A stretch of 42,611 nt of DNA from Candidatus Giovannonibacteria bacterium RIFCSPLOWO2_02_FULL_45_28 (GTDB taxonomy: Bacteria > Patescibacteriota > Minisyncoccia > UBA11713 > 2-01-FULL-45-33), in NCBI GenBank assembly GCA_001780725.1, contig MFIM01000016.1, positions 1-42,611 on the forward strand. Direction: 5' to 3'. Made by a program: the position numbers and the translations under genes. Below, piece by piece: positions 2,568 through 27,298 of the stretch. How positions within the stretch are numbered: position 1 is the first letter of the stretch; the number at the start of each line of letters is the position of its first letter. The notes under the pieces are model-generated. The model did no database searches. It was not told the DNA's origin and worked only from the letters and a program-made list of their open reading frames with translations.

Positions 2568-3848
2568 TTAATTCGTAATTAGTACTCGCTTTAATTTTAA
2601 GCTCCATAAATTACCGTAAGATTTGTCGCGGAAGAGGAGATGGGAATCGTCGGAGAGAAGCTTGGGGCTTGTGACGTCAAAACTTGTCGGTATGAAATCT
2701 GAAACTTTGCCGGTTGATGTATCAATTAGGACAAAGTTGTCTCGAAAAGAGATTTTGCCTTTCCACCAGTCGTCCGGAATGCCTAGCGGGAAAACATCCG
2801 ATGTTTGAAGCCCGCCAACATCGGATGTTGAGGAGCGAGGTGCTCCGCAGTACGCAATATTTTTTTGCGTCCGTAAAAACGCGCACTTTTCGGCGATTGT
2901 TTTTACGCCAAACTCCTTTACATTTCCGGTTTTTACATCAACAAATTTTAAATTAAGCAAATTACCATCCGTGTCAGAGGTTGAATAAAGCGACCCTGAA
3001 CCATCGGGATTCCAAACCGCATCAAGCCCCAATCCATCGGCGATTTTATTGAAAGCCCCGGTTGATGGGTTTAGCGTGTAAAGAAATCCTCGCGCGCCGT
3101 AGGAAGACTTAGTTTTGAGCGCTATGTTATTTGCGGTGAGCCATGAAATTTCAAAACCGGGGACATTGTTGTCAAAAATTCTTCTTTGATTTTTAAAGTC
3201 GGATGTTGCGATAAAAATATTTTGGCTGTCGCCCAGATCGTTTATAAATACCAGCGATTTTGAATCGGGAGAAAACGCAACGTCAGTAACCGAATCCGGC
3301 AGAAAATTCGTGCGCGGAGTCGTGGTTGAGTAATCAATCAAAAGTTTCCTTATCTGATTGTCTAAATTGTAAAAAACCACGGCGCGCTTTCCGTCCGGCG
3401 CCCAGACGGCGCGCAAAACTTGCGGAATTGTGAAATTTGAAATCCTGCGCTCTTCGTCCGAACCATCTGCGCGCCTTTCAAAAAGATGCCCTAAATTTTC
3501 GGGGATATTTTTGTGGTAGCGCACGGACGTTGTGCCAATCCCGGCCAATGAAGAAATATTATCGGAACTTAGGCGTATCATTGTGCCAATCGGCAAACTT
3601 CGCGCGGTTTCCGGAGAAAGGGGCAATTCGCCGCCCGGGAAAACACTCGGTGTTTTTTGGGGCGTTTCGCCACCGAGTGTTGGGGAGGGCGGCGCGCCGG
3701 AAGGCGCAGCTGAAGGAAAAATTCCCAAAAAGCCCACCCCATCTCTTTCTTCTCCATTTTTCAATCCAAACCAAACCAAAGTTCCGATAATTATTGCAAT
3801 TGCCACTCCCGCAACTATCACATTTCTTCTTGTTAAAAGATTTTCCAT
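2568..3848 (-). CDS. membrane-anchored TolB/WD40-like beta-propeller protein
   Basis: 426 aa; N-terminal TM (VIVAGVAIAIIIGTLVWFGL) and repeats such as VWAPDGKRAVVFY, VAFSPDSKSLVFIND, VWNPDGSGSLYST. Confidence 0.7.
   Translation of the reverse strand: MENLLTRRNVIVAGVAIAIIIGTLVWFGLKNGEERDGVGFLGIFPSAAPSGAPPSPTLGGETPQKTPSVFPGGELPLSPETARSLPIGTMIRLSSDNISSLAGIGTTSVRYHKNIPENLGHLFERRADGSDEERRISNFTIPQVLRAVWAPDGKRAVVFYNLDNQIRKLLIDYSTTTPRTNFLPDSVTDVAFSPDSKSLVFINDLGDSQNIFIATSDFKNQRRIFDNNVPGFEISWLTANNIALKTKSSYGARGFLYTLNPSTGAFNKIADGLGLDAVWNPDGSGSLYSTSDTDGNLLNLKFVDVKTGNVKEFGVKTIAEKCAFLRTQKNIAYCGAPRSSTSDVGGLQTSDVFPLGIPDDWWKGKISFRDNFVLIDTSTGKVSDFIPTSFDVTSPKLLSDDSHLLFRDKSYGNLWSLKLKRVLITN
2781..2848. repeat. 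palindromic element, core ACATCCGATGT / ACATCGGATGT, inside the beta-propeller CDS
   Basis: gcgggaAAACATCCGATGTTTgaagcccgccAACATCGGATGTTgaggagcgagg. Confidence 0.85.
3631..3690. repeat. palindromic element, core ACACTCGGTGT / CACCGAGTGT, inside the beta-propeller CDS
   Basis: ccgcccgggaaAACACTCGGTGTTttttggggcgtttcgcCACCGAGTGTTggggagggcgg. Confidence 0.88.
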
Positions 3849-3851
3849 GGG

Positions 3852-4004
3852 TTATTTGGCTAGTTCCGCGCTGTGCTCAGCGACTTTTTGATTAAATAAA
3901 TCTTGTATTTTTTCGGGCTCTCCTTTTTCAAAATCCACTCCGCGCAGAATGACTTCGTCATTTTTTTCTATTTTTTGTTCCGCCGATTGTAAAAATTCTT
4001 TCAT
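3852..4004 (-). CDS. small hypothetical protein (50 aa)
   Basis: Translated by hand: MKEFLQSAEQKIEKNDEVILRGVDFEKGEPEKIQDLFNQKVAEHSAELAK. Tightly packed between the HepT and beta-propeller ORFs; below the track length cutoff. Confidence 0.5.
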   Translation of the reverse strand: MKEFLQSAEQKIEKNDEVILRGVDFEKGEPEKIQDLFNQKVAEHSAELAK

Positions 4005-4007
4005 GTT

Positions 4008-4433
4008 TTATTTTTTAACATTATATTCCGATATGAATTTGATATACTTTTTGAAGTCTTCAAAATTGATGCGCAAATCTTTGAGAAACTGCCTGCGATT
4101 TAAGGTTTCATAACCGTGTACAATTCGGTTGCGTACGCCAGCCACTGGAGCAACGCGATCCGCGAACTCCTTAGGCAACACATTGTTGCCGCCTAAAACA
4201 TAAAACGTGCTTTGAAAATCATCCGAAATTGGGAATTTCAGTTCCTTAATAAAATGCTGATTGATATCCATCATTATGTCCACAGCCAACTGGAAAGCCC
4301 TTTCTAGGTGCCGAAGCTTGTCTAAATCCTCTAAAATTGCAGCGTCACCGAGCTTTAAAAGATTTTCCAACTCTTCAACGTAACCTCGAAGTTCATTTAA
4401 CTTTGCTTCCACAAATTGTTTTTCAAAAGTCAT
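4008..4433 (-). CDS. hepT: HepT-like HEPN RNase toxin
   Basis: 141 aa; contains RNRIVHGY, an exact RX4HXY motif of HepT toxins; adjacent to an MNT-type nucleotidyltransferase. Confidence 0.85.
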   Translation of the reverse strand: MTFEKQFVEAKLNELRGYVEELENLLKLGDAAILEDLDKLRHLERAFQLAVDIMMDINQHFIKELKFPISDDFQSTFYVLGGNNVLPKEFADRVAPVAGVRNRIVHGYETLNRRQFLKDLRINFEDFKKYIKFISEYNVKK

Positions 4434-4434
4434 T

Positions 4435-4845
4435 TTAGCTTATGCCTTGCACGTACTCCTTTAATCTCCGTTCTTTAAGCTCAAAAAGCGGCTTGGCTTC
4501 CACGTATCGTTTGAAGGCGTAAGCTCGCAGTTCATAAAAATTTAGGGGGTTGGTTTGATATAAAACTTGTCCGTTATCGGATATCGCGTAAAGCAAAAGT
4601 GGTGGGGCAAGATGTATATTTACCAAATCAATGCGCTGACTTTTGAGAATTGGGTTGAGATCCAGCATCATTTGAGCTTCTTCTCTGATACCAAGGTTTT
4701 TTGTGCTCAAATAAGCGATGTCCACATCGCTTTCTTTATGTGTTTTGCCTGTTACGGACGAGCCGAACAGCACAAGCAATTTAAGCCCGTATTTCTCCGC
4801 TACGTTTTTTAGCTCTTCCTTTTTCTTTTCCGTCAATTTTATCAT
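4435..4845 (-). CDS. mntA: MntA-like minimal nucleotidyltransferase antitoxin
   Basis: 136 aa; GSSVTGKTHKESDVD matches the GSX10DXD motif; immediately upstream of hepT. Confidence 0.87.
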   Translation of the reverse strand: MIKLTEKKKEELKNVAEKYGLKLLVLFGSSVTGKTHKESDVDIAYLSTKNLGIREEAQMMLDLNPILKSQRIDLVNIHLAPPLLLYAISDNGQVLYQTNPLNFYELRAYAFKRYVEAKPLFELKERRLKEYVQGIS

Positions 4846-4902
4846 CTTTTTATTTTACAACATTTTTAAGGCGTTGTCTAGTTTGTGCTCCGCGATTATT
4901 AT

Positions 4903-4929
4903 ATTTCTTCTTGTTAAAAGATTTTCCAT
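4903..4929. repeat. 27-bp direct repeat copy (second copy at 3822-3848)
   Basis: atttcttcttgttaaaagattttccat identical at 3822-3848 and 4903-4929. On the minus strand it encodes MENLLTRRN, the start of the 2568..3848 CDS. Confidence 0.9.
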
Positions 4930-4935
4930 AATTGA

Positions 4936-5415
4936 TTACATTACGTTTTCTATTCCCTCCGATCCCGGTATAATAATATTTTGTTGCGGTTGTTGCGTGG
5001 TTTGTTGCTGTGGTTGTGTTGTAGTGGTGTTTTGATTAAGGCTTTTTATATCCAACTGCAAATTCACCAGTTGCGGGTTAATTGTCCAAAGAATCAGATA
5101 GGACAAAAGCGCGAGAAGCAACCCGAAAATCGCCTGCGTAATGCGGTCTCTGGCATCTGCCTTGGAATCAATCGCTTCGGAGATCGCGTATTGGATTCCG
5201 CCGATTACAATCATGACAACCGCCAGCACTGCGGCGAGGCTTAAGATAAAAGGAATAATATTTTTGATGTACTCCGGAAATGTGCTTACCTGTTGGCCAA
5301 CGCCCGGAAGCGGCTGGAGCAAAGAATATGGAACGCCGTCGGCGGCAGAGGAAATGTAAAATCCGGAAACCAAAATCAAAAATGACAATCCAAAAATCCA
5401 AAATTTGTTTTTCAT
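4936..5415 (-). CDS. pilin-like (VirB2/TrbC-like) membrane protein
   Basis: 159 aa; signal sequence, two TM segments (IIPFILSLAAVLAVVMIVIGGIQYAIS; ITQAIFGLLLALLSYLILWTINP); Gln/Thr-rich tail; at the end of a T4SS-like cluster. Confidence 0.65.
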   Translation of the reverse strand: MKNKFWIFGLSFLILVSGFYISSAADGVPYSLLQPLPGVGQQVSTFPEYIKNIIPFILSLAAVLAVVMIVIGGIQYAISEAIDSKADARDRITQAIFGLLLALLSYLILWTINPQLVNLQLDIKSLNQNTTTTQPQQQTTQQPQQNIIIPGSEGIENVM

Positions 5416-6434
5416 TGTCGGGCTGTTACTGATAATCCCGCCTCTGCTTGCTGAAAAAGCGCGCCTTTATCTTCAATTTTTATAGAAAAATTAGTTTGCG
5501 ATTCTGTTTCCGCCGGAGCGGTGAGATCTAAAAGCCGCCGATTCCCGACTCCGTCGGCCGGTGGACTGATTTTTTCTCCGTTCGCGCTCCAGCCGATTTG
5601 CGCGCGCGCAAGAGACTCCAGGCCAAAAAAGAACGGTTCGGCCAGGATTGAAAACGAATTTCCCGCCCGCCCGAGAAACGAAACAATTGCCTGCGGTTTA
5701 ATGCCGGTAAGCGCATTAACTTCATAAAATAAAATTTCCGGCTGATATGTTCTGATGCGGATGTTTTTTTGCGTTGATGCCACGCCGCCGAGCGAGCTTG
5801 TTTTAAGCGTAACAATATATTCGCTGGATCCGACATCCGCCAATCTTAAAACAAGTTTATTTTTTCCGCCGCCAGATTGATTTTGCACTGGTTTGCCGTC
5901 CAAAGACCACTCATAAATCAGATTTTGGAGTTTTAGTTTTGCGCCTCCGGAAAAGAGGTGCGGTACGGCTATTATTTCAACAACGCTTCCCGGCGTTGGC
6001 AAAGCCGCTCCTCTGTAAAAAGCTGGCGTATAAGCTAGGGGGTGGATTATAAAATCAATGTCCGCGACAGAAACGTCCGTTTGGGTTTCAAAGACAGATC
6101 CGTCTATGGAAGTTGCTATGGCTCGTATGACCATTCCGGAACCCAAACTGCCGGCCGTGAATGTTTGTTCTATAAGTCCCCGGCCGGAGGCAATCTCTTT
6201 CCCGTTTAAAAGCCATCGGAAATTTGCCCGCGCCGCGTCAAACGCAAAGGATTTCGCCGTTGCGGTTATTGTTTGCCCGGCTTTCGGAGAAGCCGGAGAA
6301 ATGCTTAAAACAAGGTCATTCGGAGAGGTAAGAATGAGCGCGGAAGCGTGCCAAGCAGTAATAAATGCCAAAACTAACACCAAATATCTCATTACTTTTA
6401 TTATCTCATGGTTTGTTAAACGAATTAAGCTCAT
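5412..6434 (-). CDS. secreted/membrane protein with Ig/PKD-like repeats
   Basis: 340 aa; N-terminal hydrophobic segment; SPASPKAGQTITATAKSF and similar beta-sandwich-like stretches; overlaps neighbouring ORFs by a few nt. Confidence 0.5.
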   Translation of the reverse strand: MSLIRLTNHEIIKVMRYLVLVLAFITAWHASALILTSPNDLVLSISPASPKAGQTITATAKSFAFDAARANFRWLLNGKEIASGRGLIEQTFTAGSLGSGMVIRAIATSIDGSVFETQTDVSVADIDFIIHPLAYTPAFYRGAALPTPGSVVEIIAVPHLFSGGAKLKLQNLIYEWSLDGKPVQNQSGGGKNKLVLRLADVGSSEYIVTLKTSSLGGVASTQKNIRIRTYQPEILFYEVNALTGIKPQAIVSFLGRAGNSFSILAEPFFFGLESLARAQIGWSANGEKISPPADGVGNRRLLDLTAPAETESQTNFSIKIEDKGALFQQAEAGLSVTARQ

Positions 6435-8245
6435 TGTTTTTGTTGCTGAAAGTCCTCCTTCGCTTTTTTAATTGCCAGCAACTGCGCAGGATCGGAGGTG
6501 ATAATTTGATCCTCCGTGTATGAGGCAAGTATCTTTATCGCCACATGCTTTAAGCCGGCGAAAAATATTCCCTCTCCGACATCGGATTCCAATAGCAGAA
6601 ATTTCTCTTCCTCGGTTAATTTAAACACTTCTTTTAGCTGGTCAATGCTTGAAGGCGACTGTTTGAGCAGAATTTGTATTGATGAATTGTTGATAATGGT
6701 CGGACCGTAACTGGAATTAAGAAAATCTCCGACGTCTTGCGTGATTGTCGCAAGGCCAAGATAATATTTTCTGGCGCGTTTGGCGATTCCGGAAAGAAAG
6801 GAGGCCCCTTGCTCATTTTTCATAATCCACCAAGCCTCGTCCACTACCAAAAGGCGTTTTTTGATTTCTGCGCGGATCGCGTTCCATATGTAATTAATAA
6901 TTAAATACATTGCAACCGGACGGAGCTCCTCTTCCATGTCGCGGACGGAAAAAACAATAAATTTCTGGTTGATATCCACATTAGTTGGTTGATTGATGAA
7001 TCCGGCCCAGGTGCCCTTGGTAAACTTCCGCAATCTTTCTACCATGGAGCCCCCGCCTTCCATACCGGCAAGCACCAATTCCAAGTCGGAAAGAATCGGC
7101 GGTATGGCTTTGGAAAAATCGGAATCCGGCGTGATATCGCGCGATGCGTATGTTTCGGTGATTGCGCGGTCTATAATAGAATCTTCTTCCGGAGTAAGTC
7201 CGCCGAGCATAATTCTAAAAAGTCCCACCAGATTTATAATATGCGATCTCAAGACATCCGCTGGCGATTCGTCCTCGCGCGGGGTGGGCAAGTCAAAAGG
7301 ATTTATGTGGTGGTGTGAGGTCAAAGAAATATTAAAATATCTTCCGCCGACCGCTTCGGCCAGATATTCGTATTCGCGCTCCGGGTCTATAACGATAATA
7401 TCCGTATCAAACATCAAAGAGCGCAAAATTTCCAGTTTGGTTGCGTAAGACTTTCCTGCGCCCGCTTTGGCGAAAATTACGGAGTTGTAATTTTCCAAAC
7501 TAAAGCGGTCAAAAAGAACGAGGGAATTGTTGTGGGAATTTATGCCGAAAAGCACGCCCTTATTTGAAGTAAGATCAAAAGATACGAACGGAAAAACGCT
7601 TGAGGCTGGAGAAGAATTCAAATAGTTGTTTATTTGGAGCATGTCTTCTCCCTGCGGGAAAACCGAATTTACTCCGTCTTGCTGCTGAAAAAGCGCGGGC
7701 TTGGCGTAAACCAGGCGGGACTCCAGCATGGATTTGATTTCCGCCTCCACCTTATCAAGCTCCTCAATTGTGTTTCCGTAAATTGCGATATAGAGTCCGA
7801 AGTTAAAAAGACGCTCTTGCGCTTGCTGCAGTTTGTCGCGAAGAGATTCCAGATCCTGATAGGCCGTGTCCAAAATCGGATCTCTCACCAAGCCTTTTTG
7901 CTGGCGAATTGCTATTTGAGATTGTACCTCGGCGACTTTTCTTTGCAGCTTTCTCAAAACAGTAGCCGTGTTTACCGGATGAATAAATATGGAAACGTCA
8001 AAAACTTTATCTAAATTTATAATCGGGCTAAACCAGTTTGAAGAGAGAAATCTTGGAAGAGAAAAAACAAAAACTACACGCATAAGTTTTTCACCGAGCC
8101 GGACATGGTTGGCCGTAATCTCCAGCGCGGCCGGGGCGATAACGTCTTTTAATTGTAAAACTCCGGCGCGATAAATTTCCTCCGGAAAGACGGGGGTAAT
8201 TTCGGTTTCTTCTTTTTTCTTTTTAAATATATCTAAGATGGACAT
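6431..8245 (-). CDS. VirB4/TraC-family T4SS ATPase
   Basis: 604 aa; Walker A FAKAGAGKSYATKLEILRSL, Walker B-like KRLLVVDEAWWIM, IDPEREYEYLAEAVGGRYFNIS; typical of VirB4/TrbE/TraC. Confidence 0.9.
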   Translation of the reverse strand: MSILDIFKKKKEETEITPVFPEEIYRAGVLQLKDVIAPAALEITANHVRLGEKLMRVVFVFSLPRFLSSNWFSPIINLDKVFDVSIFIHPVNTATVLRKLQRKVAEVQSQIAIRQQKGLVRDPILDTAYQDLESLRDKLQQAQERLFNFGLYIAIYGNTIEELDKVEAEIKSMLESRLVYAKPALFQQQDGVNSVFPQGEDMLQINNYLNSSPASSVFPFVSFDLTSNKGVLFGINSHNNSLVLFDRFSLENYNSVIFAKAGAGKSYATKLEILRSLMFDTDIIVIDPEREYEYLAEAVGGRYFNISLTSHHHINPFDLPTPREDESPADVLRSHIINLVGLFRIMLGGLTPEEDSIIDRAITETYASRDITPDSDFSKAIPPILSDLELVLAGMEGGGSMVERLRKFTKGTWAGFINQPTNVDINQKFIVFSVRDMEEELRPVAMYLIINYIWNAIRAEIKKRLLVVDEAWWIMKNEQGASFLSGIAKRARKYYLGLATITQDVGDFLNSSYGPTIINNSSIQILLKQSPSSIDQLKEVFKLTEEEKFLLLESDVGEGIFFAGLKHVAIKILASYTEDQIITSDPAQLLAIKKAKEDFQQQKQ

Positions 8246-8246
8246 T

Positions 8247-8909
8247 TTATTGTATTGCCGGCGGCTTGCCTTTTTCTAATTCGCCCGGGTTGTATAGCCC
8301 ATAAAACAGCTCTATTAATTCTTCCGTATTTAGCGGTGTGGCGCGGACGCCGGAGCGAACAAGTCCTTGGATTACCGAGTCAACTCTCTGCCAAAGCTGA
8401 TTTTTGTATTCGTCAAATTTTTCTTGGGTTAACCCATCCCCTTTCTTGGATTGTTTTGTGCCCAACAAGCTGCCGATGCCACCCAATAATGTTGATATTC
8501 CTTCTTTCGGCGTTGTAAAAAGGGCGGGGGTGAACGGCACGACGGCGTAGAAATTTTTTGTGACAATATTCGCTGCGCGGACGAACGTTCGGACAAATTC
8601 TATGTATTCGGCGACCTGGATTTTTAATAGTTCGTTGGTTTGTTTGACCTCGGACTCGCGCAATGTTTCTATGTACGGCTCAATATTGAGTTTTCTGGAC
8701 TCTATAAAAAATTGCAGTGAGAAGTCCAGTGAATTTAAAAAGTTTTGGTATTGCATTACAACCGCCGTTTGTTCGTCCGCGCTTTTTAACGCAAAGTTCA
8801 GAGATGAGGCCATAAGCACTGCCCGCAGAGAGCCGTTTTTCAAAATCAAAACACCGTCCCGGATTTCTTCTATTTGCAAGATATCTTGCGATGGTAATGC
8901 TGTAGGCAT
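8247..8909 (-). CDS. VirB4/TraC N-terminal-like T4SS component
   Basis: 220 aa; IEEIRDGVLILKNGSLRAVLMASSLNFALKSADEQ; directly precedes the VirB4 ATPase ORF with 1 nt between them. Confidence 0.6.
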   Translation of the reverse strand: MPTALPSQDILQIEEIRDGVLILKNGSLRAVLMASSLNFALKSADEQTAVVMQYQNFLNSLDFSLQFFIESRKLNIEPYIETLRESEVKQTNELLKIQVAEYIEFVRTFVRAANIVTKNFYAVVPFTPALFTTPKEGISTLLGGIGSLLGTKQSKKGDGLTQEKFDEYKNQLWQRVDSVIQGLVRSGVRATPLNTEELIELFYGLYNPGELEKGKPPAIQ

Positions 8910-8911
8910 AG

Positions 8912-9352
8912 TCAGCGTTTTAATTTCTGTTGCACATCAAGCGACCAAGAAAGGTCTTGTAACTTGCTTTCCGTTAATTTGGGCGCTGCCCCACCGGCCC
9001 CCTTGAAGTCGCCAGCAGGGAAGAAGTCCGACTTCTTTGGGGACTTGAAGTCGGACTTCGAAGGGGTCGGCGCGGCCACTTTTCTCCACAAATAAAGCCT
9101 TGCCGAAGAAGAATAATTTAATGCGGCGGCAAGCATTTTAATAAAAGGCATCCCGTTTATTTTTAAAAACGCCAAAGATGCTACGAACGCGGCAACCGGA
9201 GCGCCCAAAATTATTACGAGCCAAAGCTGCAGGAAAACATACATTATGAAAATTATTGCTCCGCCGCCGAGAATATAAAAAAACTGTTTCGCGGTTAGTG
9301 GCCCGAAAATTTTATCTTCTACTTCTATAAATTGCGGGACTTGATGTTGCAT
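8912..9352 (-). CDS. PrgI-family (VirB3-like) membrane protein
   Basis: 146 aa; QVPQFIEVEDKIFGPLTAKQFFYILGGGAIIFIMYVFLQLWLVIILGAPVAAFVASLAFLKING. Confidence 0.8.
   Translation of the reverse strand: MQHQVPQFIEVEDKIFGPLTAKQFFYILGGGAIIFIMYVFLQLWLVIILGAPVAAFVASLAFLKINGMPFIKMLAAALNYSSSARLYLWRKVAAPTPSKSDFKSPKKSDFFPAGDFKGAGGAAPKLTESKLQDLSWSLDVQQKLKR
9019..9066. repeat. palindromic element, core AAGTCCGACTT / AAGTCGGACTT, inside the PrgI CDS
   Basis: ggaaGAAGTCCGACTTCtttggggacttGAAGTCGGACTTCgaagggg. Confidence 0.85.
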
Positions 9353-9353
9353 A

Positions 9354-10124
9354 TTATTCTATTGGTTCGCGGTAAGGATCGCTGTTTTGATAAGTTTTTT
9401 TAGGAGGCTGCGGCTCGGCGTTTAGCGCTTTTTCCAGCTCGCTTTTTGCGATAAGAGAATTTTGCGGCAACTTTTCTTTCGGAGCCGGGGAAATGTCCGG
9501 CTTCGGCGGCAAATCCGGTATTGGCATTTTTTTGACGAAGATGGGTGGAAGAATTGCGGGAGGGGGTGGAGGTTTAAATACTAACCCACCCCCTTCTTCC
9601 CCCTCCCAAAGGGAGGGTGGAAGTTCTGGCGCAACAATTTCTTCATGGGTTGGAAGAGGTTTGGGTGTCGGCGGTTGCGGGGGGGTTGTTTTAGAAATTG
9701 CGCCGCCCGTAGGCTCTGCGCCGCCATGGAAAACACTCGGTGTTTTTTTGGACTCAACACTGAGTGTTGAGGAGGGCGGAGTTGGTGGCGCGCCCAACCC
9801 ATGAATCTTCTTCAGCGATTCTCTTACCGGCTGGAAAACTTTTTTGTTGATTTCCTCCGCAATTGCTCTGGCTTTTTCCGCAGGCACTGCAAGCCGGCTT
9901 GTTAGATTTTTCACGTAATCCGATGGCGATGTAATTCCCAGCATCACTAGCCCCGTCTCATCCGCCAATTCCCCGATTTTATCAATTGTGAGTTCCGCTT
10001 TTTTGCCTACAGCTTGGACGGCGTCGGTAGTCTCAGGCGCAAACAGGGCCCCACGCAAATCTTCCGGTAATTTTTCCAAGGCTTCGGAAATAGCTTGTCG
10101 TTTTTTATTGTCTACGGTCTTCAT
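9354..10124 (-). CDS. proline-rich hypothetical protein of the T4SS-like cluster
   Basis: 256 aa; conserved-looking N-terminal helical part and a Pro-rich low-complexity C-terminus; position between TrbL-like and PrgI genes. Confidence 0.55.
   Translation of the reverse strand: MKTVDNKKRQAISEALEKLPEDLRGALFAPETTDAVQAVGKKAELTIDKIGELADETGLVMLGITSPSDYVKNLTSRLAVPAEKARAIAEEINKKVFQPVRESLKKIHGLGAPPTPPSSTLSVESKKTPSVFHGGAEPTGGAISKTTPPQPPTPKPLPTHEEIVAPELPPSLWEGEEGGGLVFKPPPPPAILPPIFVKKMPIPDLPPKPDISPAPKEKLPQNSLIAKSELEKALNAEPQPPKKTYQNSDPYREPIE
9721..9780. repeat. palindromic element, core ACACTCGGTGT / ACACTGAGTGT, inside the Pro-rich CDS
   Basis: ccgccatggaaAACACTCGGTGTTtttttggactcAACACTGAGTGTTgaggagggcgg; aligns with 3631-3690. 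Confidence 0.88.
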
Positions 10125-10128
10125 GTTT

Positions 10129-13098
10129 TTATGTTCCTAATAACCTATTTAATATTTCTTGATGCGCCGCCGAAGCGATGCCGGCAAGAGTATCTCTGAT
10201 CTGCTTCGCCATAAGGCGATTATTTTTTTCTTCCATCATTTCGGCTAAAGCCTCCGCCCTAAAGTCTTTTTCTGTTTTTAGTACTTCTTCAAAAGCATCT
10301 TCATCGCTAATCATACCGCCACTAGCAGCTTTTAAGTCTTGGAATGGTTTCGAGGTTCTAATTTTAGCTTTAACGTTTGGTATCTTGCCGGCGTCTTTTG
10401 TTGTTTGCGCAATAGAATTTGATACGGCGTCTTGAAGGGCTTTAATTTTTGCCTTGTCCCCGCCGGTGATTGCCTCAATGCTGCCCATACTGCCGGAGCT
10501 TATTATTGTTTCTACCATTTCTGGATGTTTGATGATTTCCGGAGTAATAATGGCTTTTATGGTTTCCCGTTTCAGGCCTCCTTGTTTTAGGGCAACGCTT
10601 GCCATGCGCGCGTGAGCGTCCGGATTTGCGCCCTTAACATATTCAACGACGGAGACCATTTTTGTCGGATTTCTTTGCCAAACAATACTTTGAGTTTCTG
10701 GGGGCAAATCAAGGTAAATGTCGGCAACTTCAGCGATATTTTTTTGTCCGGTTTGCTGCGCCAAAGAGGTGTAAAAATTCTTTTTCTGGTCGGCTGACAA
10801 CGCACCTGTTGCTTTTTCAACAACGGAAAGCCGCGGCTTATCTTTAGCCCATCGGATATAAAGCGCGGCTTGCTGGTCAGCGGAAAGCGTGACAACAACC
10901 TTTTCCGCTTCAGTTTGAGGAAGGGCGTCAACATATGAAGTGACGGCTGGAGTTGACACGCGCCGCAAAACTTCACTGTTGAATTTGGCCTGTTCTTCCG
11001 GATTAAGTTCGGATTTGACGGAGTTTTGATATCGGCCCAAAGCGGTGGCGTTTGTGTGCATCTTTTCAAGCCACAGTACGCGCTGGCGGTCTTCAGCCGC
11101 TTTGAAATATCTCTTTTGTTCGCCGGGATCTTTAGAATTTATAAAGTCTTCAAAAGCGGTTCCTCCTTTAAGCTCGGCATTGCGCATCTCTTGCCGCTTT
11201 TCGGCTTTGTTGTAGCTTAACTGCTCTGCGGTAATGAAGGCGGGTGAAGCCAAAATGTTCTTTGCGGAGGCTTGGGCCGCGCCGGAAAGCTTATTGAGCA
11301 CAAATTCAGCCCTCTTTTCGTCGTCCGGGAAACTTCGCAAAATTTGCGCTTGGGCCTCTGGCGAATAATTGCCGAATTGAGCTATTTGTTCTGGTGACGA
11401 AAGCCGTTTCCATGATTCAAGGTCAAACCTTGCGGCCGCAGTCGGAGGCAATTGTCTCTTGATTATACCTTCGGCCGTTGCGCGATCTTCACTGGACATA
11501 AACTTCATCATCTCTGCTTGTTGCTCCGGATTTAATTTGCTAAGTAAAGCAACTTTTTCTTGCGCTCCAAGGCCGGCAAAATACTTTGCTTGCCGCTCCG
11601 GAGTTAATTGTTTCGCGAAATCCGCCATCGCTCCTGCCCTCGCTTCTGTTCCGCCCAAACCTTTCAGCCAGCCGGAGAATCTTGTCGGGGCGGTGCCAAG
11701 AAGCGGCACACGCTCTTGCAACTTCGCCGCCGCCGGCGCAATCGCCGTTCCCAACAACCCCGTTGTGTATCTCGCTGCCAATCCCCCCACCGCTCCGGTG
11801 AGCCATTTTCTAGCAGTGGTGGCACCCTTGATTACGCTGTCAGCAAAAAGAATACCCATTTTTCTGGCCAGTAAAAACGAGGTCAACAGCATAAGCGTTG
11901 CGGTCATTATGAGAAGTATTGCTGGCGGATTGAGCAGAATATTTCCTTCTGGCACATCTTTACCGAATTGGTTTATAAAACCTATACTTATGTACAAAAG
12001 AAACATAAAAGCAGGCAGGAAAAAAGCTTGGTTTATAAATGTTTCCCACCATGACTGCCAAAGTTTTTTTTCGGTGACCGGCAAAGCATAAGATATAAAA
12101 GCGATAGGCGCCAAAACTAACAAGAGAGTTAGCATAACCGCACGCATTATCAAAAATATTGCCCCAGCTACAAGAACAAATAAAACAGCGATCATAAATA
12201 TAAGCGAGCCCATGCTAAGATAGAAAAATTCAGTTGCGCTGCCGACATCGCTGCCAGTGACCGCAGCCCATCCTACTGCGCCTACACCGCCTCCAGTAGC
12301 TAACAAAGTAAAAAATGCAACCCAGCCGCATCCGGGAATTATTAAACAAGCAGCAATTCCCACAGCAGCTCCAGCGCCCACAGCTAGTCCTCTGCCAACT
12401 TGGCTTATCTCGGCCACAACAGAGCTTTTTGGCGGTTCCATGTTCCAAACATTTTGAAGTTTTGTGCCAGCCACAATCGCGCTAGCAATAGATGTTGGTC
12501 CGGGAGAACCATTTGTGGTCATGGCTCTGTAAAATTGGAGTCCCAACACATTGCTTGCGTCAATAATTACGTACCCTATTGTCAAGCTGAAGTTAATCAA
12601 CAAGGCAACAACAATTAATTTCGGCAGAAGCGATTTTGCGCCGTAGCTGGCACTTCTTAAAATTGTAGCTATTGCTATGGTCAACAGTATTAAAATAAAA
12701 AATATATTTGCAACGTCTCTGGAAATTGTCCAACCGCTCGCGATAATACTCTGTTGCTTTAGTGTTGACAAAGAAAATTCTAGCGCACCATCAAAAACCA
12801 TAGCTGTAAGATCAACAAGTCCGGCCACCGTTTTTCCTAACGCAACTACTAAACCGTTAAAACCCCAAAGAAAGCCGGTACCAAGATAACCGATTAGCCC
12901 TGTCCCTTTTTGTTCTATTGAATTGTCGAACGAGGTTTTGACTCCCGTGGGTGTGCTTACAGCCAGCGCCAACGGCGCAATCGCAAAACTCAAAACCAAA
13001 CCCAATAATAAAATCATGGAGCATGTAACGTAAAACTTGGAGCATTTAAGTTTCAAGTTGCGAGTTTTAAGTTTTATGTTTTGCGTTTCAGGTTTCAT
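10129..13098 (-). CDS. TrbL/VirB6-like polytopic membrane protein with a long hydrophilic tail
   Basis: 989 aa; many TM segments in the first ~430 aa and a repetitive helical C-terminus; located in the cluster with VirB4 and PrgI. Confidence 0.7.
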   Translation of the reverse strand: MKPETQNIKLKTRNLKLKCSKFYVTCSMILLLGLVLSFAIAPLALAVSTPTGVKTSFDNSIEQKGTGLIGYLGTGFLWGFNGLVVALGKTVAGLVDLTAMVFDGALEFSLSTLKQQSIIASGWTISRDVANIFFILILLTIAIATILRSASYGAKSLLPKLIVVALLINFSLTIGYVIIDASNVLGLQFYRAMTTNGSPGPTSIASAIVAGTKLQNVWNMEPPKSSVVAEISQVGRGLAVGAGAAVGIAACLIIPGCGWVAFFTLLATGGGVGAVGWAAVTGSDVGSATEFFYLSMGSLIFMIAVLFVLVAGAIFLIMRAVMLTLLLVLAPIAFISYALPVTEKKLWQSWWETFINQAFFLPAFMFLLYISIGFINQFGKDVPEGNILLNPPAILLIMTATLMLLTSFLLARKMGILFADSVIKGATTARKWLTGAVGGLAARYTTGLLGTAIAPAAAKLQERVPLLGTAPTRFSGWLKGLGGTEARAGAMADFAKQLTPERQAKYFAGLGAQEKVALLSKLNPEQQAEMMKFMSSEDRATAEGIIKRQLPPTAAARFDLESWKRLSSPEQIAQFGNYSPEAQAQILRSFPDDEKRAEFVLNKLSGAAQASAKNILASPAFITAEQLSYNKAEKRQEMRNAELKGGTAFEDFINSKDPGEQKRYFKAAEDRQRVLWLEKMHTNATALGRYQNSVKSELNPEEQAKFNSEVLRRVSTPAVTSYVDALPQTEAEKVVVTLSADQQAALYIRWAKDKPRLSVVEKATGALSADQKKNFYTSLAQQTGQKNIAEVADIYLDLPPETQSIVWQRNPTKMVSVVEYVKGANPDAHARMASVALKQGGLKRETIKAIITPEIIKHPEMVETIISSGSMGSIEAITGGDKAKIKALQDAVSNSIAQTTKDAGKIPNVKAKIRTSKPFQDLKAASGGMISDEDAFEEVLKTEKDFRAEALAEMMEEKNNRLMAKQIRDTLAGIASAAHQEILNRLLGT

Positions 13099-13107
13099 GT
13101 TTCATGG

Positions 13108-14574: not shown

Positions 14575-15559
14575 ATCCTACAAAATGATATCCGCCATCC
14601 GACTTGGCGAAATTGAGTCCGTCGTTTTTTATCTGTCTTTGCATTGATTTGTAAAATTGTGGCGCGCGCTCCGCCTGCTTAAAATAAATTACCAATCCCA
14701 TAAGCCCCCGCGCCGGATCCTTATCCGTAACCATCATAAAGCTATCGGCCGCGGCGGTGTTTTGCAGTATATTCATAAGATCAAGATGTAATGACGCGTA
14801 ATTTGCCGGGACGCGTTGTTTTTTTAAAAAATCAATTGTTTTTTGGTAAGCCGCAATGTAAGCGCCGAGTTTTTTCAGATCTTCGTAGCGCTCGGATGCC
14901 AAAACCGCGTTTACAATATCTATCTCCGGCGTTTGAAGGCCAGCGAAAATTTTATTTAAAAAATCGCCGGTTGCGTTTAAGTATTTTTTAATTCCGTCAG
15001 CTGAAACATTTTGCTCCGCATGGACATCGGACGGCGAAAACGTATCTTTGTATAAAAGCGCGTCTCGGCTCAAAGATTCTATCAAGGATTCGGAGATTGC
15101 CTTTTGCTGGAAGGTGTCCAATGCTCCCTCTGCGGACCCCGCGGCTGTGAGGTATTGGATTGCGAATTCTTGGGCTATTTTATCGGTCAAGGTGCGTGGT
15201 GTAGTCGTGGATGCTTTACTTTGCTCCTCCGGTTTTTTTAACTTGTCGTTTGGCCCAGCCGCCAAAGGATCGCGGCCTTGCTTTATTTCTTCGCCATCAT
15301 GTGTGCCATCCCCATCGGTGTCCGGCTTCTTCGGATCGGTTTTCCAAAGAATTTCTTCCCAATCCTTGAGACCGTCGTTGTCACTGTCGCGGTTGGCGTC
15401 TTGGTAGGCGGTTAAAAACGAGGTTTGAGATTTGAAGTTTGAAGTTTGAGGTTGCAAATTTGACGTTTGCCAAATTCGCATCACAAACCAGCCCACGAGT
15501 AAAACAACAAGGGCGGCAAAAACAAGGGTTATGAAATTTTTTGATGGCAAATAACCCAT
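14564..15559 (-). CDS. membrane-anchored protein with EF-hand/thrombospondin type 3-like Ca-binding repeats
   Basis: 331 aa; N-terminal TM then DANRDSDNDGLKDWEEILWKTDPKKPDTDGDGTHDGEEIKQGRDPL. Confidence 0.75.
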   Translation of the reverse strand: MGYLPSKNFITLVFAALVVLLVGWFVMRIWQTSNLQPQTSNFKSQTSFLTAYQDANRDSDNDGLKDWEEILWKTDPKKPDTDGDGTHDGEEIKQGRDPLAAGPNDKLKKPEEQSKASTTTPRTLTDKIAQEFAIQYLTAAGSAEGALDTFQQKAISESLIESLSRDALLYKDTFSPSDVHAEQNVSADGIKKYLNATGDFLNKIFAGLQTPEIDIVNAVLASERYEDLKKLGAYIAAYQKTIDFLKKQRVPANYASLHLDLMNILQNTAAADSFMMVTDKDPARGLMGLVIYFKQAERAPQFYKSMQRQIKNDGLNFAKSDGGYHFVGYGL

Positions 15560-20007: not shown

Positions 20008-20019
20008 AATGCCCCCTCC

Positions 20020-22893
20020 TTAAACCACAATGTTGACGAGTCTTCGTGGAACGAAGATAATCTTTCGTGGTTTTCTGTTTTCTAGAGCGAGCTTAACTTT
20101 TTCGCGCGCGAGAGTCAAGCGCTCGGCTTCGGATTGCGAAATATTGACTGGGACTTCAAATTTGTCGCGCACTTTGCCGTTTATTTGGATAATAAGCTCA
20201 AAAGTATTTTCTTCAACGAGCTTCGGGTCGTATTTCGGCCAAGGCTCAAAATGGATAGACGCTTTGTTGCCCAAGCGCGACCAAAGTTCTTCGGCAAGAT
20301 GTGGCGCAAACGGAGCAAGTAGCTTTAAAAATACGCTGAAATTTTCAGAGGAAGCTCCGACTTTTTCCATTTCATTTAAAAGCACCATTAATGCGGAAAC
20401 GGCGGTATTAAAATGAAATTCCTCAATATCTTCTCCGACTTTCTTTATGGTTTTATTCAGCGCTCGCGCAAAATCGCCTCGCTCCTCAACACTCGGTGTT
20501 GAATCCCGAAAAACACCGAGTGTTTTCCCGCGAGGCGAGGCAAATTTCCAAACTCTGTCCAAAAATCTCCGGATGCCTAAAATGCCCTGCGGGTTCCACG
20601 GATACGAACCGGCTTCATTATATGGGCCGATGAAAGCCAAATACATCCGCACCGTATCCGCTCCGAATTTGGCAACATATTCATCCGGATCAATCACGTT
20701 GCCTTTTGATTTGGACATTTTCTGACCGTCCGGACCCAAAATAATGCCGCGGTTTCTTCTGTCTTTGTATGGTTCGTCTCCCAGTTCTTTCGGAATAAGC
20801 CCCGAATCAAACATTGCTTCATACCAAAAGCGGGAATATAAAAGGTGCATTGTCGTGTGCTCGGCTCCCCCGGAATATAAATCAACCGGCATCCAGTTTT
20901 CCATTTTTCTCTTTTGGGCAAATTCTTTTTCATTTTTTGGGTCGCAATATCTCAAAAAATACCAGGAAGAATCAACAAAGGTGTCCAGCGTGTCTGTCTC
21001 GCGTTCCGCAACGCTTCCGCATTTCGGACATTTAACTTTTAGCCATTTTTCAGCTTTAGCAAGCGGAGACTTCCCATCCGAACGCGGTTTGTAATCCTTT
21101 ATCTCGGGCAATAAAACCGGCAAATCTTTTTCCGGCGCGGCCAGCGCACCGTCTTTTAGACAATAAATTATCGGAATCGGCGCCCCCCAATAACGCTGCC
21201 GCGATACCACCCAATCGCGCAAGCGGTATTGCGTTTTTATTTCCCCACCGACAAATTCTGTTATTGTTTTTTTTGCTTTCTCCGAATCCATCCCGTCAAA
21301 TTTTCCGGAATTAACCATTATACCGCTTCCGGCATACGCCTCTCCCAAAATTAGGCGCCTAAAAACAAGACTGTGCAGTTGATCTTTTACCTTATCAAGA
21401 ACCTCTGTCTTGCTAAGCCATTCCAACGAAAATTTTTCTTTCTCTGTATTTTCCAATCTTGGAGGCGTTTTCTCATTGTTTAGCAATTGAAAATGCAAAC
21501 CCGTGGCGTTAATGTTTCTGTTCACGTTTTTCGAAAATGCCACATAGTGGTGGTGTATTTTTTCTGAAACCGAAACCAGTTTCAGGTTTTTATAGCCGGT
21601 TTCTTCTTGAATTTCGCGGCACGCAGCGGCTTCGTAGTTTTCAGCGCCGTCTATCCCGCCTCCGACAAAAAGATTCCCGCCGAGCTTGGGTCCCCAGTTT
21701 ATAGATAAAAATTTTCCCGTTTTAGAATCCTCAACAACAGCTACAATGCTTTTTCTAAATTCCTCGTTTTCACGCAACTCGCCGGTAACCGGCTCAACAA
21801 CAGTTCTCGTCTGCAGACCAAATTTTTTTGCGAACTCAAAATCGCGCTGGTCGTGCGCGGGGACAGCCATAATCGCGCCAGTTCCGTAGCCCATAAAAAC
21901 ATAGTCGGCAACCCAAATCGGAATTTCTTCCTTATTTGCCGGATTTACGGCTTTGATGCCTTTTAATTCAACTCCGGTTTTCTCTTTTTCTGCTTTCTGC
22001 CTTTGCAATTGCGTTTTCTTTTTTGCTACGTCAATATATCTTTCAACCTCTTTGAGGTTAGAAATCAGAGGTTTGAGGTTAGAAATTAGAGGGTGTTCCG
22101 GAGCAAGCACCATATAAGTCGCCCCGAAGAGAGTATCCGGACGCGTTGTAAAAACCTTTATTTTAAATTCCAAATTCTTAATTCTAAATTCTATTTCCGC
22201 CCCTTCCGATTTCCCTATCCAATTTCTCTGCGCTTCTTTTATTTCTTCCTTCCAATTTAACTTGTCCAAACCAAACAAAAGCCGATCGGCGTAATTCGTA
22301 ATTTTCAGCATCCACTGTTTCATCTGTTTCTGTTCAACTTCCGCTCCGCATCTCTCGCAACAGCCGCCGACTATTTGTTCATTGGCGAGCACGGTTTTAT
22401 CTTTCGGACACCAATTAACGGAAGTTTCGGCTTGATATGCCAGCCCTTTTTTAAAAAACTGCAAAAAAATCCACTGTGTCCATTTGTAATATTCCGGATC
22501 GGAAGTTATAACTTCGCGCGACCAATCAAAAGATGCACCCATGGATTTGATTTGCTTGCGCATGTAATCAATGTTGCCGTATGTCCATTTTTTAGGATTT
22601 AATCCGCGCTTTATGGCAGCATTCTCCGCAGGAAGCCCGAAAGCGTCAAAACCTATCGGGAATAAAACATTTTTTCCTTCCATTCTTTTTTTTCGCGCAA
22701 AAATGTCGGGCACGGAAAAAGCATACCAATGCCCGGTATGCAGATTGCCGGACGGGTACGGAAATTCAACCAAAACATAAAAATTTCTAGCCCGAGGCCA
22801 GTCAGCCTTGGGTTGGTCATTCGTTTCGTAGATTTTTGATTTCTCCCACTCTTTCTGCCATTTTTTCTCTATTTTTTTGTGGTCATACGGCAT
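20020..22893 (-). CDS. leuS: leucyl-tRNA synthetase with a Nudix domain inserted in the CP1 editing region
   Basis: 957 aa; FPYPSGNLHTGHWYAF, TTRPDTLFGATYMVLAPEHPL, GTGAIMAVPAHDQRDFEFAKKFGL, KMSKSKGNVIDP. Internal Nudix box GGIDGAENYEAAACREIQEETGY. Confidence 0.97.
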   Translation of the reverse strand: MPYDHKKIEKKWQKEWEKSKIYETNDQPKADWPRARNFYVLVEFPYPSGNLHTGHWYAFSVPDIFARKKRMEGKNVLFPIGFDAFGLPAENAAIKRGLNPKKWTYGNIDYMRKQIKSMGASFDWSREVITSDPEYYKWTQWIFLQFFKKGLAYQAETSVNWCPKDKTVLANEQIVGGCCERCGAEVEQKQMKQWMLKITNYADRLLFGLDKLNWKEEIKEAQRNWIGKSEGAEIEFRIKNLEFKIKVFTTRPDTLFGATYMVLAPEHPLISNLKPLISNLKEVERYIDVAKKKTQLQRQKAEKEKTGVELKGIKAVNPANKEEIPIWVADYVFMGYGTGAIMAVPAHDQRDFEFAKKFGLQTRTVVEPVTGELRENEEFRKSIVAVVEDSKTGKFLSINWGPKLGGNLFVGGGIDGAENYEAAACREIQEETGYKNLKLVSVSEKIHHHYVAFSKNVNRNINATGLHFQLLNNEKTPPRLENTEKEKFSLEWLSKTEVLDKVKDQLHSLVFRRLILGEAYAGSGIMVNSGKFDGMDSEKAKKTITEFVGGEIKTQYRLRDWVVSRQRYWGAPIPIIYCLKDGALAAPEKDLPVLLPEIKDYKPRSDGKSPLAKAEKWLKVKCPKCGSVAERETDTLDTFVDSSWYFLRYCDPKNEKEFAQKRKMENWMPVDLYSGGAEHTTMHLLYSRFWYEAMFDSGLIPKELGDEPYKDRRNRGIILGPDGQKMSKSKGNVIDPDEYVAKFGADTVRMYLAFIGPYNEAGSYPWNPQGILGIRRFLDRVWKFASPRGKTLGVFRDSTPSVEERGDFARALNKTIKKVGEDIEEFHFNTAVSALMVLLNEMEKVGASSENFSVFLKLLAPFAPHLAEELWSRLGNKASIHFEPWPKYDPKLVEENTFELIIQINGKVRDKFEVPVNISQSEAERLTLAREKVKLALENRKPRKIIFVPRRLVNIVV
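20475..20537. repeat. palindromic element, core ACACTCGGTGT / ACACCGAGTGT, inside leuS, opposite orientation to the other two copies relative to its gene
   Basis: CGCCTCGCtcctcAACACTCGGTGTTgaatcccgaaaAACACCGAGTGTTttcccGCGAGGCG. Confidence 0.9.
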
Positions 22894-22954
22894 ATATTGA
22901 CAATTATACCCGCAGAGCTATGTTTAAGCCAGAATCCAAGATAAGGAAGTTTTT

Positions 22955-23155: not shown

Positions 23156-23165
23156 GGAGGAAAAA

Positions 23166-24821: not shown

Positions 24822-24830
24822 TTTTATTAG

Positions 24831-24858
24831 CCCTCGGACATCCGAGGGTTTTTATTTT
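24831..24858 (+). terminator. rho-independent terminator after P5CDH (possibly bidirectional)
   Basis: CCCTCGGA ca TCCGAGGG TTTTTATTTT. Confidence 0.85.
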
Positions 24859-25703
24859 AAATTAAAAATTCTGATTGCGTTTTCGGTTGTAGTGCGCGCG
24901 ACTTCTTCGAAGTCTTTGTTTAAAATTTTGGCGATTTTTTTAGCGACTTCTTCAACGTATAGTGGCTCGTTGCGCTTGCCGCGGTAAGGCAAGGGCGCAA
25001 CATACGGGGCGTCGGTTTCTAAAAGAATACGCTCCGGCGGAATAAATTTAATTAATTTTTCGTACTCGCGCGCGAAAGTAACAACCCCGCCGAAAGAAAA
25101 TGAAAAGCCGAGAGCCATAAGTTTTTGCGCGTCTTCGGTTGTGCCTGAGAAAAAATGGATAATGCCCGGAGGAGAAGTTAGAAGTTGGCGATTAGAATTT
25201 AGAATTTGGATTAAATCAGTAAACGCCTCTCTGCAATGAATCATCAACGGCTTCCCAGCTTCGCGCGCCAACTCAATTTGTTTGATAAATACCTCAGCTT
25301 GTTTCTTTTTTGTGTCCTCCGTCAATCTATAATAATCCAGTCCGCACTCGCCGATAGCTACAACTTTTGTATCTTGGGCGAGCTTTTTGTAGTAGTCGTA
25401 GTTGAAATCTTCACCTCGGCTAGTAAAACCCCCCTTGTCCTCCGAAGCTTTGGCGAAGGAGGAGCCCAACTCCTTCTCATCATGAAAACTTTTTTCTGTA
25501 TGAATCGGATGAAGCCCGACTGTCGCAAAAACCCCCTCATGCTTATGCGCTAATTCGCACGAATTAGCCGAGGTGTCGCGCTGTGTGCCAATGTTTATCA
25601 TCCAAATCCCCGCCTCCAGCGCACGCCGAATTACCGCATCGCGATCTTTTTCAAATGCCGAAAATTGCGTGTGAGTATGAATGTCTACAAGTTTTGATTT
25701 CAT
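24852..25703 (-). CDS. tatD: TatD family hydrolase
   Basis: 283 aa; VDIHTHTQFS, GECGLDYYR, IHCREAF, LETDAPYVAP. Confidence 0.95.
   Translation of the reverse strand: MKSKLVDIHTHTQFSAFEKDRDAVIRRALEAGIWMINIGTQRDTSANSCELAHKHEGVFATVGLHPIHTEKSFHDEKELGSSFAKASEDKGGFTSRGEDFNYDYYKKLAQDTKVVAIGECGLDYYRLTEDTKKKQAEVFIKQIELAREAGKPLMIHCREAFTDLIQILNSNRQLLTSPPGIIHFFSGTTEDAQKLMALGFSFSFGGVVTFAREYEKLIKFIPPERILLETDAPYVAPLPYRGKRNEPLYVEEVAKKIAKILNKDFEEVARTTTENAIRIFNLK
25438..25463. repeat. palindromic insert inside tatD (peptide SSFAKASEDKGG)
   Basis: TCCTCCGAAGCTTTGGCGAAGGAGGA. Confidence 0.7.
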
Positions 25704-27298
25704 TGAATGCGCGGGAATAGGTGCGCAAATTCCTTAGCGCTAAACTCTTTCCACTCTTCACGGGATGTCGGTTCAACGCCCAAACTTAGTAAAATTTTAT
25801 CGGCTGTTTCCGGCATAAACGGTTTTATCATCCAAGCTACCGAAGCCAAAGAATAAGCCAGATGCCACAAAACAACTTTTGCCTCCTCCGGCTGCGATTT
25901 TACCATTTTGTATAATTTATAATCTTCAATGTATTCGTCTAACCTTCCCAAATAAATCCAGATGTTTTTTATGGCTTGAGATATTTCATACGCCGCCATA
26001 GCTTTCTGGTAAGCCAGCCAAAGAACATTATCCACCAAAAATGACGGCGAGGCCTGCTCAAACGACCATCGTTTTTTTTCGCCGGTTGTTAAAAATTCAA
26101 GATTTTTTTTAATCGGATAACGGGCCAGAGCCCCCTCCTCCGGCTTGGAAATTGCGGGATATAAACTGATCATTTTCAGCGTGCGCGCCAAAAGATTTCC
26201 CAAACCATTCACCAGTAAACCGCTATAGATCTCGCTAAAGTGCTTATCGGAATAATCGCTGTCGCCGAACACCGAAGTCTCGTGCGCCAAATAAAACCTC
26301 ACCGCCTCCGAGCCGTATTTTTCAATTAAAGGAATGGGGTCAATCACATTGCCCAAAGATTTGGACATTTTTTCTCCTTTCACATTTACCCAGCCGTGCA
26401 CAAAAATTATTTTGGGCAGAGAAAGCCCGGCCGACATAAGCATCGCCGGCCAAAAAATCGTGTGGAACTTCATTATATCTTTGCCTACAACGTGAATGTC
26501 GGCGGGCCAAAAACGCTCAAATTTGGAAGTCCGATTTCCAGTGGAAGTCGGACTTCCAAAGCTTTCTCCGTAACCCAGCGCCGTAATATAATTCGCAAGC
26601 GCGTCGCACCAGACATACATTGTCTGTGTTGCGTCGCTTGGCACTGGCACGCCCCAAGCAATATCTTTGGAAGGCCGCGAAAAGCTTACGTCGCCGATTT
26701 CTTTCAACATATTTAATGTTTCTTCTTTACGAAAAGAGGGAAGAATTTTCATGTCTTCCTTAGAGATTGCTTCCAGCAATCGGTTAGTATATTTTGATAA
26801 TTTAAAAAAATAATTTTCTTCTTCTATCGCCTCCGGCGGTTTTTTGTGGATCGCGCAGACATTACCCTCCATGTCTTTTTCCGTAATAAAAGCTTCGTGG
26901 CCGACGCAATAAAGTCCTTTGTAAAAACTTTTATAAATATCTCCGGCTTCGGCTAATTTTTTCCAAAGCAGCTGCGCGCCCGGCCAATGGCGCTCTTTAT
27001 CCGATGTTCTGATAAAATCGTCGTTAGAAATATTTAGTTTTTTGAGCAAATCCTGAAAAACCACAGCTAACCCGTCAACAAATTCTTTGGGTGTTTTTTG
27101 GGCCTCCCCGGCTGCGCGCGCGATTTTTGCCCCATGCTCATCCGTTCCGGAAAGAAAAAAAACATCTTTATCGCGGAGCCGCGAGTGTCTCGCGACAACA
27201 TCAGCCTGCAGCGCCTCCAGCGCAAACCCCAAATGCGGCGGCGCATTAAGATAAGGAATGGAAGTTGTGATATAAAATTTGTCTTTCTCCGTTTTCAT
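25700..27298 (-). CDS. metG: methionyl-tRNA synthetase
   Basis: 532 aa; TTSIPYLNAPPHLGFALEALQADVVAR, GTDEHG, HGWVNVKGEKMSKSLGNVIDP. Confidence 0.96.
   Translation of the reverse strand: MKTEKDKFYITTSIPYLNAPPHLGFALEALQADVVARHSRLRDKDVFFLSGTDEHGAKIARAAGEAQKTPKEFVDGLAVVFQDLLKKLNISNDDFIRTSDKERHWPGAQLLWKKLAEAGDIYKSFYKGLYCVGHEAFITEKDMEGNVCAIHKKPPEAIEEENYFFKLSKYTNRLLEAISKEDMKILPSFRKEETLNMLKEIGDVSFSRPSKDIAWGVPVPSDATQTMYVWCDALANYITALGYGESFGSPTSTGNRTSKFERFWPADIHVVGKDIMKFHTIFWPAMLMSAGLSLPKIIFVHGWVNVKGEKMSKSLGNVIDPIPLIEKYGSEAVRFYLAHETSVFGDSDYSDKHFSEIYSGLLVNGLGNLLARTLKMISLYPAISKPEEGALARYPIKKNLEFLTTGEKKRWSFEQASPSFLVDNVLWLAYQKAMAAYEISQAIKNIWIYLGRLDEYIEDYKLYKMVKSQPEEAKVVLWHLAYSLASVAWMIKPFMPETADKILLSLGVEPTSREEWKEFSAKEFAHLFPRIQ
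26522..26561. repeat. palindromic element, core AAGTCCGATTT / AAGTCGGACTT, inside metG
   Basis: TTTGGAAGTCCGATTTCCagtGGAAGTCGGACTTCCAAAG. Confidence 0.82.

Follow-up and report, generated by a model that had tools for sequence, protein, structure and literature searches.

Paired-hairpin elements kept in frame within genes of Candidatus Giovannonibacteria, a probably REPIN-like family

Paired hairpins in the window

The 42,611 nt of contig MFIM01000016.1 from Candidatus Giovannonibacteria bacterium RIFCSPLOWO2_02_FULL_45_28, here called the window, contain five copies of a palindromic element built from two paired hairpins, each within an open reading frame (ORF), among them leuS and a gene of the PrgI family (Table 1). 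An initial annotation had assigned six segments to one common layout. This is correct for segments 1–5, in which the arms and the GGGAA/GAGGA-like feet were confirmed as described, along with the arm classes ACAC, ACAT and AAGT, but not for segment 6, which belongs to a different palindrome type (type B). From 5' to 3' the element consists of an outer stem of about 8–10 nt, the foot GGGAA, a 13-nt arm, an 11-nt loop, the reverse complement of the 13-nt arm, the foot GAGGA and the complement of the outer stem. Each arm is itself palindromic, forming a small hairpin of 5 bp with a 3-nt tip, so that a single strand can fold either into two small hairpins or into a single hairpin of 13 bp enclosed by the outer stem. 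The outer stem (about 8–10 bp) varies between copies and is complementary as well, and the feet are the most constant part. The initial annotation had overlooked the outer stem, the nested copies and the fixed codon register. Copy 2 deviates by its longer loop and worn second arm, copy 4 by a single mismatch between its arms.

Single-strand DNA folds of the window segments gave z-scores from -3.6 to -7.9, with -8.8 as the lowest value overall. Under a strict layout test four window copies passed, compared with a mean of 0.15 and a maximum of 3 in 100 order-2 Markov sequences. The observation in the window is thus far from chance, and the copies found genome-wide exclude chance. When the Rfam covariance models were run on the window, a tRNA alone was matched and the element matched none. 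For the search of further copies we used a covariance model (R1), which was built from 12 copies of the home genome, i.e. the genome that holds the window.

Table 1. Element copies, their host ORFs and the type B palindrome in the window. E, E-value with model R1.
Feature	Position	Strand	Remarks
Element copy 1, ACAT arms, outer stem AATGCCTAGC/GCGAGGTGCT with wobbles	2778..2844	+	Antisense in ORF 2568-3848; E 1e-15; DNA fold
Element copy 2, ACAC arms, 14-nt loop, second arm partly worn	3627..3696	+	In the ORF of copy 1; E 3e-12
Element copy 3, AAGT arms	9008..9074	+	Antisense in PrgI-family ORF 8912-9352; E 6e-14
Element copy 4, ACAC arms	9717..9783	+	Antisense in ORF 9354-10124; E 8e-16
Element copy 5, ACAC arms, 9-bp outer stem	20473..20539	-	Sense in leuS 20020-22893; E 2e-19
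Host ORF of copies 1 and 2, 426 aa, no Pfam match	2568..3848	-	
Host ORF of copy 3, PrgI family (PF12666)	8912..9352	-	Pfam
Host ORF of copy 4, 256 aa, no Pfam match	9354..10124	-	
Host ORF of copy 5, leucyl-tRNA synthetase	20020..22893	-	Pfam
Type B palindrome, 18-bp inverted repeat, 3-nt loop	26522..26561	.	In methionyl-tRNA synthetase ORF 25700-27298; no model R1 match

Stem variation, codon register and spread

The stems change while their pairing is maintained, as had been claimed from the window alone. Pairing is kept in 94.7% of the cells of an alignment with 135 distinct rows, and 22 of the 23 base pairs show changes in both partners. For covariation, the score is 0.698, compared with 0.243 for shuffled and at most 0.137 for slid structures, in an alignment which had been fitted to the tested structure. 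A gap-free count over the 104 copies of exactly 67 nt agrees with this fitted alignment: the inner stem is Watson-Crick paired to 98.7% (65% when shuffled), the outer stem to 83% (48% when shuffled). The main arm cores are ACACTCGGTGT, AAGTCCGACTT, AAACCTGGTTT, ACATCCGATGT and AAACCGGGTTT, and particular outer stems accompany particular arm classes (GCCAGCC with AAGT, GCCCGGC with AAACC). A paired change can also be followed at an orthologous site, where AACAC/GTGTT in the home genome corresponds to AACGC/GCGTT in genome G001; in the reading of the gene both changes are synonymous. The possibility that the outer stems are pre-existing target palindromes was considered. Lone outer-stem palindromes were not clearly enriched (8 versus 2.4, control maximum 11), and some of them turned out to be deleted elements. 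It is therefore more likely that the stems move with the element or are formed along with it. Integron attC sites were dismissed as well, the resemblance being restricted to AAC...GTT, which is absent from the AAGT class.

The association with genes is nearly complete, in accordance with the earlier claim of in-frame palindromes in unrelated genes and in either orientation: 123 of the 124 tabulated copies lie inside long ORFs. The codon register was counted in 102 distinct 67-nt copies, for which this question was open. Of these, 99 keep to one register, whichever their orientation, whereas free use of all stop-free registers predicts 49.2 (z 10). It follows from the geometry that this is the only register which is self-symmetric about the dyad. 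Consequently, the peptides read in the two orientations are almost alike (PAGKKSDFFGDLKSDFEEAG and PASSKSDFKSPKKSDFFPAG), and a third codon position is paired with another third codon position. The encoded stretch is a stop-free, hydrophilic linker with a recurring motif [KT][SPL][GD][VF], represented by KSDF, TLGV and KPGF; as an example, the leucyl-tRNA synthetase peptide reads across host and element as ...KTLGVFRDSTPSVEER. The element is very likely translated within its host protein. Translational bypassing and introns were rejected as alternatives since the copies are stop-free and in a single register, which makes bypassing or splicing unlikely. According to Pfam, the host genes include leuS, argS, a valS- or ileS-type synthetase, uvrA, uvrB and uvrC as well as genes for a Mur ligase, a cysteine-desulfurase-like aminotransferase, a pseudouridine synthase, a CCA-adding-type enzyme and a PrgI-family protein.

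The genome scan proposed in the initial annotation was clearly positive. Model R1 detects about 30 copies in the home genome (886 kb) and copies in all ten genomes of its family in the GTDB (Ca. Giovannonibacteria), whereas among 45 genomes of the same class outside the family there was one weak case. A scan of 84,980 species with a degenerate pattern revealed the element also in Andersenbacteria, Sungbacteria, Nomurabacteria and one further bacterium. These copies have the same feet and other arm sequences, and the clearly coding ones mostly have loops of 5, 8 or 11 nt. Viral contigs gave no match to the element, and carriage by viruses was rejected on these grounds. In the open-access literature searched, no paper on such elements in Parcubacteria was found.

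Comparison of orthologs, likewise proposed at the outset, also spoke for in-frame palindromes: some orthologs are empty or hold another copy, with differing peptides. The same linker carries an element in orthologous proteins of several genera (the UvrA and cysteine desulfurase sites), but arm class, orientation and outer stem often differ at such shared linkers, the encoded peptides differ freely, and other orthologs are empty, as is UvrA of G002, G005, G003 and G007. In leuS, the outer stem TCGCCTCG is common to three genomes, the home genome and, from another genus, G002 and G005. Relative to the home genome, in which feet and loop are both forward, both are reversed in G002, and in G005 the feet are reversed and the loop is forward. 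The simplest reading is an in-place inversion at two levels, for which only template switching between inverted repeats is needed. Copies are nested within the arms of other copies; a motif search found 36 of the 124 nested in another copy or adjoining its feet. Where the nesting could be resolved, successive feet are mostly separated by 13 nt, or by 10 nt, so that with each level about 18 or 15 nt are added on either side and the register is kept. One site shared by orthologs carries the simple form in the home genome and, inside the same outer frame, the nested form in G001. A test for the terminal inverted repeats and target duplication of a DDE-type miniature inverted-repeat transposable element met with orthologs that have unrelated linkers or other copies, and with no clean empty site.

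Some further observations concern the same loci and genomes. Two locus pairs of G005 and the home genome (L155 and L058, L154 and L056) have near-identical elements and host peptides across two genera while other loci differ, which suggests recent transfer or binning contamination. The type B palindrome, GGAAGTCCGACTTCC-n(3-6)-GGAAGTCGGACTTCC, occurs in genes, at its position in the window and at the home loci L016, L036, L038 and L040. It lacks feet, outer stem and 11-nt loop, and shares with the element, namely with its AAGT arms, solely the AAGTC/GACTT core; metG hosts this type only. GC-rich palindromes of the CCTGCCTGCCGGACGGGCAGG kind, with LPAGQAG-like peptides, lie in or beside elements (L148, L106:2178-2265, L071 near 1480) and are possibly another in-frame palindrome family of these bacteria. 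The leuS ORF of the window also contains a NUDIX domain (PF00293, E 2.5e-11; window 21382-21756, residues 380-504) directly after the editing domain, an unusual insertion in a leucyl-tRNA synthetase. Near gene ends, degenerate AAGTTTGAAGTTTG-like repeat runs with a period of 14 nt are found at 13037-13104, 15410-15477 and 22051-22090.

RAYT genes and comparable systems

Repetitive extragenic palindromic (REP) sequences are associated with tyrosine transposases (RAYTs), and a transposase of this kind had been suggested from the window. Indeed, the home genome has eight Y1_Tnp (PF01797) genes of RAYT size and each family genome two to eight. By an automatic criterion, 35 of 56 RAYTs have recurring cognate REP hairpins, typically right before the start, inside the ORF and right after the stop, each RAYT with its own hairpin. 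Several common arm cores of the element top such hairpins: ACAC at L197 of G001, AAGT at four RAYTs including C19:6504 of the home genome, AAACCTGG at two, AAACCGGG at two, and a variant of ACAT at L203 of G005. Thus, all five common arm classes are present at RAYTs of the family, ACAT by way of a 1-nt variant. In 66.8 kb around RAYTs there are 26 occurrences of arm cores, compared with 11 lone cores in a 600 kb background of G001. In a phylogenetic tree RAYTs with the same core group together (AAGT, four genes, support 90/69; AAACCTGG, two genes, 100/99; AAACCGGG, two genes, 100/96). Outside the family, one RAYT of a Nomurabacterium carries AAGCCCGGCTT, the arm core of its own genome's element, and one of an Andersenbacterium is within one base of an arm core.

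REP stems were seen to vary by RAYT clade. At positions 1-15500 of home contig C19 (L193), and also at L192, L194 and L195, copies of the RAYT's own REP hairpin lie in frame in its coding sequence and also on either side of the gene. REPs of the RAYTs L199 and L228 resemble the type B palindrome. A search of solved structures with one RAYT gave no match. The hairpin nuclease SbcD was above the cut-off in none of 18 element-bearing genomes (G055-G063 and G000-G009 tested) and in none of 55 relatives of the class, so it appears to be missing from most of the group. This rules out the lack of SbcCD as a mark of the element genomes; the absence of SbcD may permit hairpins without discriminating the genomes that bear the element.

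Among the known systems, the closest are the REP doublets forming hairpins (REPINs) and bacterial interspersed mosaic elements (BIMEs) (PMC3116915, PMC6006769). A REPIN is a doublet of inverted REPs with compensatory changes and is thought to be moved by a RAYT (PMC3116915). TnpAREP cleavage needs a guide at the foot of the hairpin (PMC8266576). The element shares with REPINs and BIMEs the two inverted REP-type hairpins, which are separated by a spacer and can join into one long hairpin, the compensatory changes and the single-hairpin forms left by loss of the middle (here for instance L145:379). RAYTs with matching REPs are present in the family, if not in each of its genomes, and are rare outside it. 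However, REPINs are mainly extragenic and the element is almost wholly intragenic in a single register; its feet are GGGAA and TCCTC instead of GT[AG]G; and it has an extra variable outer stem, several hairpin classes per chassis and nesting. It departs from REPINs in its foot sequence, its outer stem, its location within genes, its register and its nesting. We therefore do not class it among them; it works like one.

REP dimers inside genes have already been described in other bacteria (Di Nocera et al. 2013, PMC3733652), so that the phenomenon as such is not new. There, GTAG/CGTC REPs occur as dimers encoding 20–30 aa at presumed linkers of unrelated genes. Their hosts include uvrA, uvrB, tRNA synthetases and pseudouridine synthases, and the hosts found here include UvrA, UvrB, UvrC, a pseudouridine synthase and several tRNA synthetases. 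In contrast, the intragenic copies are a minority of mostly intergenic families there, whereas here the intragenic location is the rule and the tags are others. In tnpAREP genes of subclass 2.4, cognate REPs lie inside the RAYT gene with the frame intact, as in many of the present RAYTs, but the transposase gene is the only in-frame host described (PMC6006769), whereas here a related paired form has many hosts. The Rickettsia palindromic elements (RPEs), which the initial annotation had named as precedent, hold as an analogy, being by description in-frame palindromes within functional genes, but not in the sense of membership. To our knowledge, no RPE has the GGGAA/GAGGA chassis. Double-hairpin elements of fungal mitochondria, which are organellar and have no known transposase, are by description similar in their two hairpins, their variable but complementary stems and their dispersal. 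RPE-4 and RPE-6 carry CGTC tags (PMC3733652), which are absent here.

Origin of the element

On balance, we favour the explanation that these are intragenic REPIN-like miniature elements, probably spread by RAYTs, with stems that co-evolve by template switching at hairpins. The element would be a pair of inverted REP-type hairpins, the 13-nt arms, on a common chassis of the purine feet GGGAA/GAGGA and a short outer stem. It would be transposed as a single strand and in trans by RAYT (Y1, HUH) transposases which recognise the arm hairpins. Each arm class may answer to its own RAYT clade, and this would be the reason why the arm sequence switches and the chassis stays. Template switching during replication would copy one arm onto the other, yielding paired changes, and could flip the loop or the whole inner part, yielding inversions. 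The single register would be caused by selection for tolerance at linkers.

Several points weigh against this explanation. No clean pair of an empty and a filled site was found, the orthologs of G001 included, nor did any insertion event come to light; the case for template switching rests on its products. The association of arm class with resident RAYT across the family genomes is weak and at most suggestive (p 0.011 for counts, 0.14 for shares). REPs flanking the RAYTs are single long hairpins without GGGAA/GAGGA, and the GT[AG]G tetranucleotide at the 5' foot of classical REPs is absent from the element, which has the feet GGGAA and GAGGA instead. Some REP subclasses also lack GT[AG]G (PMC6006769). 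In the nine genomes outside the family that hold copies, there is only one exact match of an arm class to a RAYT and, apart from the two RAYTs mentioned above, the others are unmatched; Y1_Tnp was undetected in two of the nine, one of which has six copies. The missing GTAG foot, the genome with six copies in which no Y1_Tnp was found and the single exact match would suit a REP-like intragenic element moved by another enzyme, whose arm cores resemble those of RAYT REPs through recruitment from, or invasion by, the same hairpins. CGTC REPs, including RPE-4 and RPE-6, also have no dedicated transposase (PMC3733652). But all five common arm classes recur at the RAYTs of the family, clustered by RAYT clade, and we hold this alternative to be a real though minor possibility.

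It is improbable in our view that the elements are old, vertically inherited and immobile linker palindromes, diversified by template switching and exchange between copies alone. Such an origin would account for elements at the same linker in orthologs of several genera and for a leuS outer stem common to three genomes of two genera, but other shared linkers differ in outer stem, arm class and orientation, some orthologs, among them several of UvrA, are empty, arm classes and outer stems are associated as spreading subfamilies would show, and nested copies exist. The strong paired changes and stable folds might instead reflect a hairpin kept as an RNA element which acts on the mRNA, through stability or pausing, and for which position is unimportant. 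This is very unlikely: the register is fixed in both orientations, so that the RNA of an antisense copy is not that of a sense copy; the copies are found at linkers of genes that are unrelated; the arm cores are shared with the REPs of transposase genes; and nested forms exist. Hardly credible, finally, is the idea that selection acts on the peptide, with its KSDF, TLGV and KPGF motifs, as a linker, the palindrome being a by-product. The single reading register and the recurring [KT][SPL][GD][VF] motif speak for it, but peptides at the same site differ freely between orthologs, a peptide does not require pairing at 23 base pairs including an outer stem, and the copies it predicts, with the peptide kept and the pairing lost, were not seen.

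As an extension of the REPIN-like explanation, we put forward tentatively, and as rather doubtful, that this is a modular mobile element compatible with coding sequence. Its chassis could carry the hairpin "address" of any one among several RAYT paralogs and insert into the tips of hairpins, its own and others, while being held in the only register that is stop-free in both orientations with third-position pairing; the element would thus be adapted to spread through genes and not between them.

REP elements are extragenic by name, and here a large family is found almost only inside the genes of genome-reduced bacteria. Such a family, present in either orientation and in a single reading register, would show how mobile DNA can be adapted so as to do no harm within coding sequence and to supply proteins with new linkers. 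With several RAYT clades and matching arm classes in one family, it becomes directly testable whether RAYTs move REP doublets. The elements explain many odd lineage-specific linkers in proteins of Parcubacteria, which is relevant to their annotation and to structure prediction.

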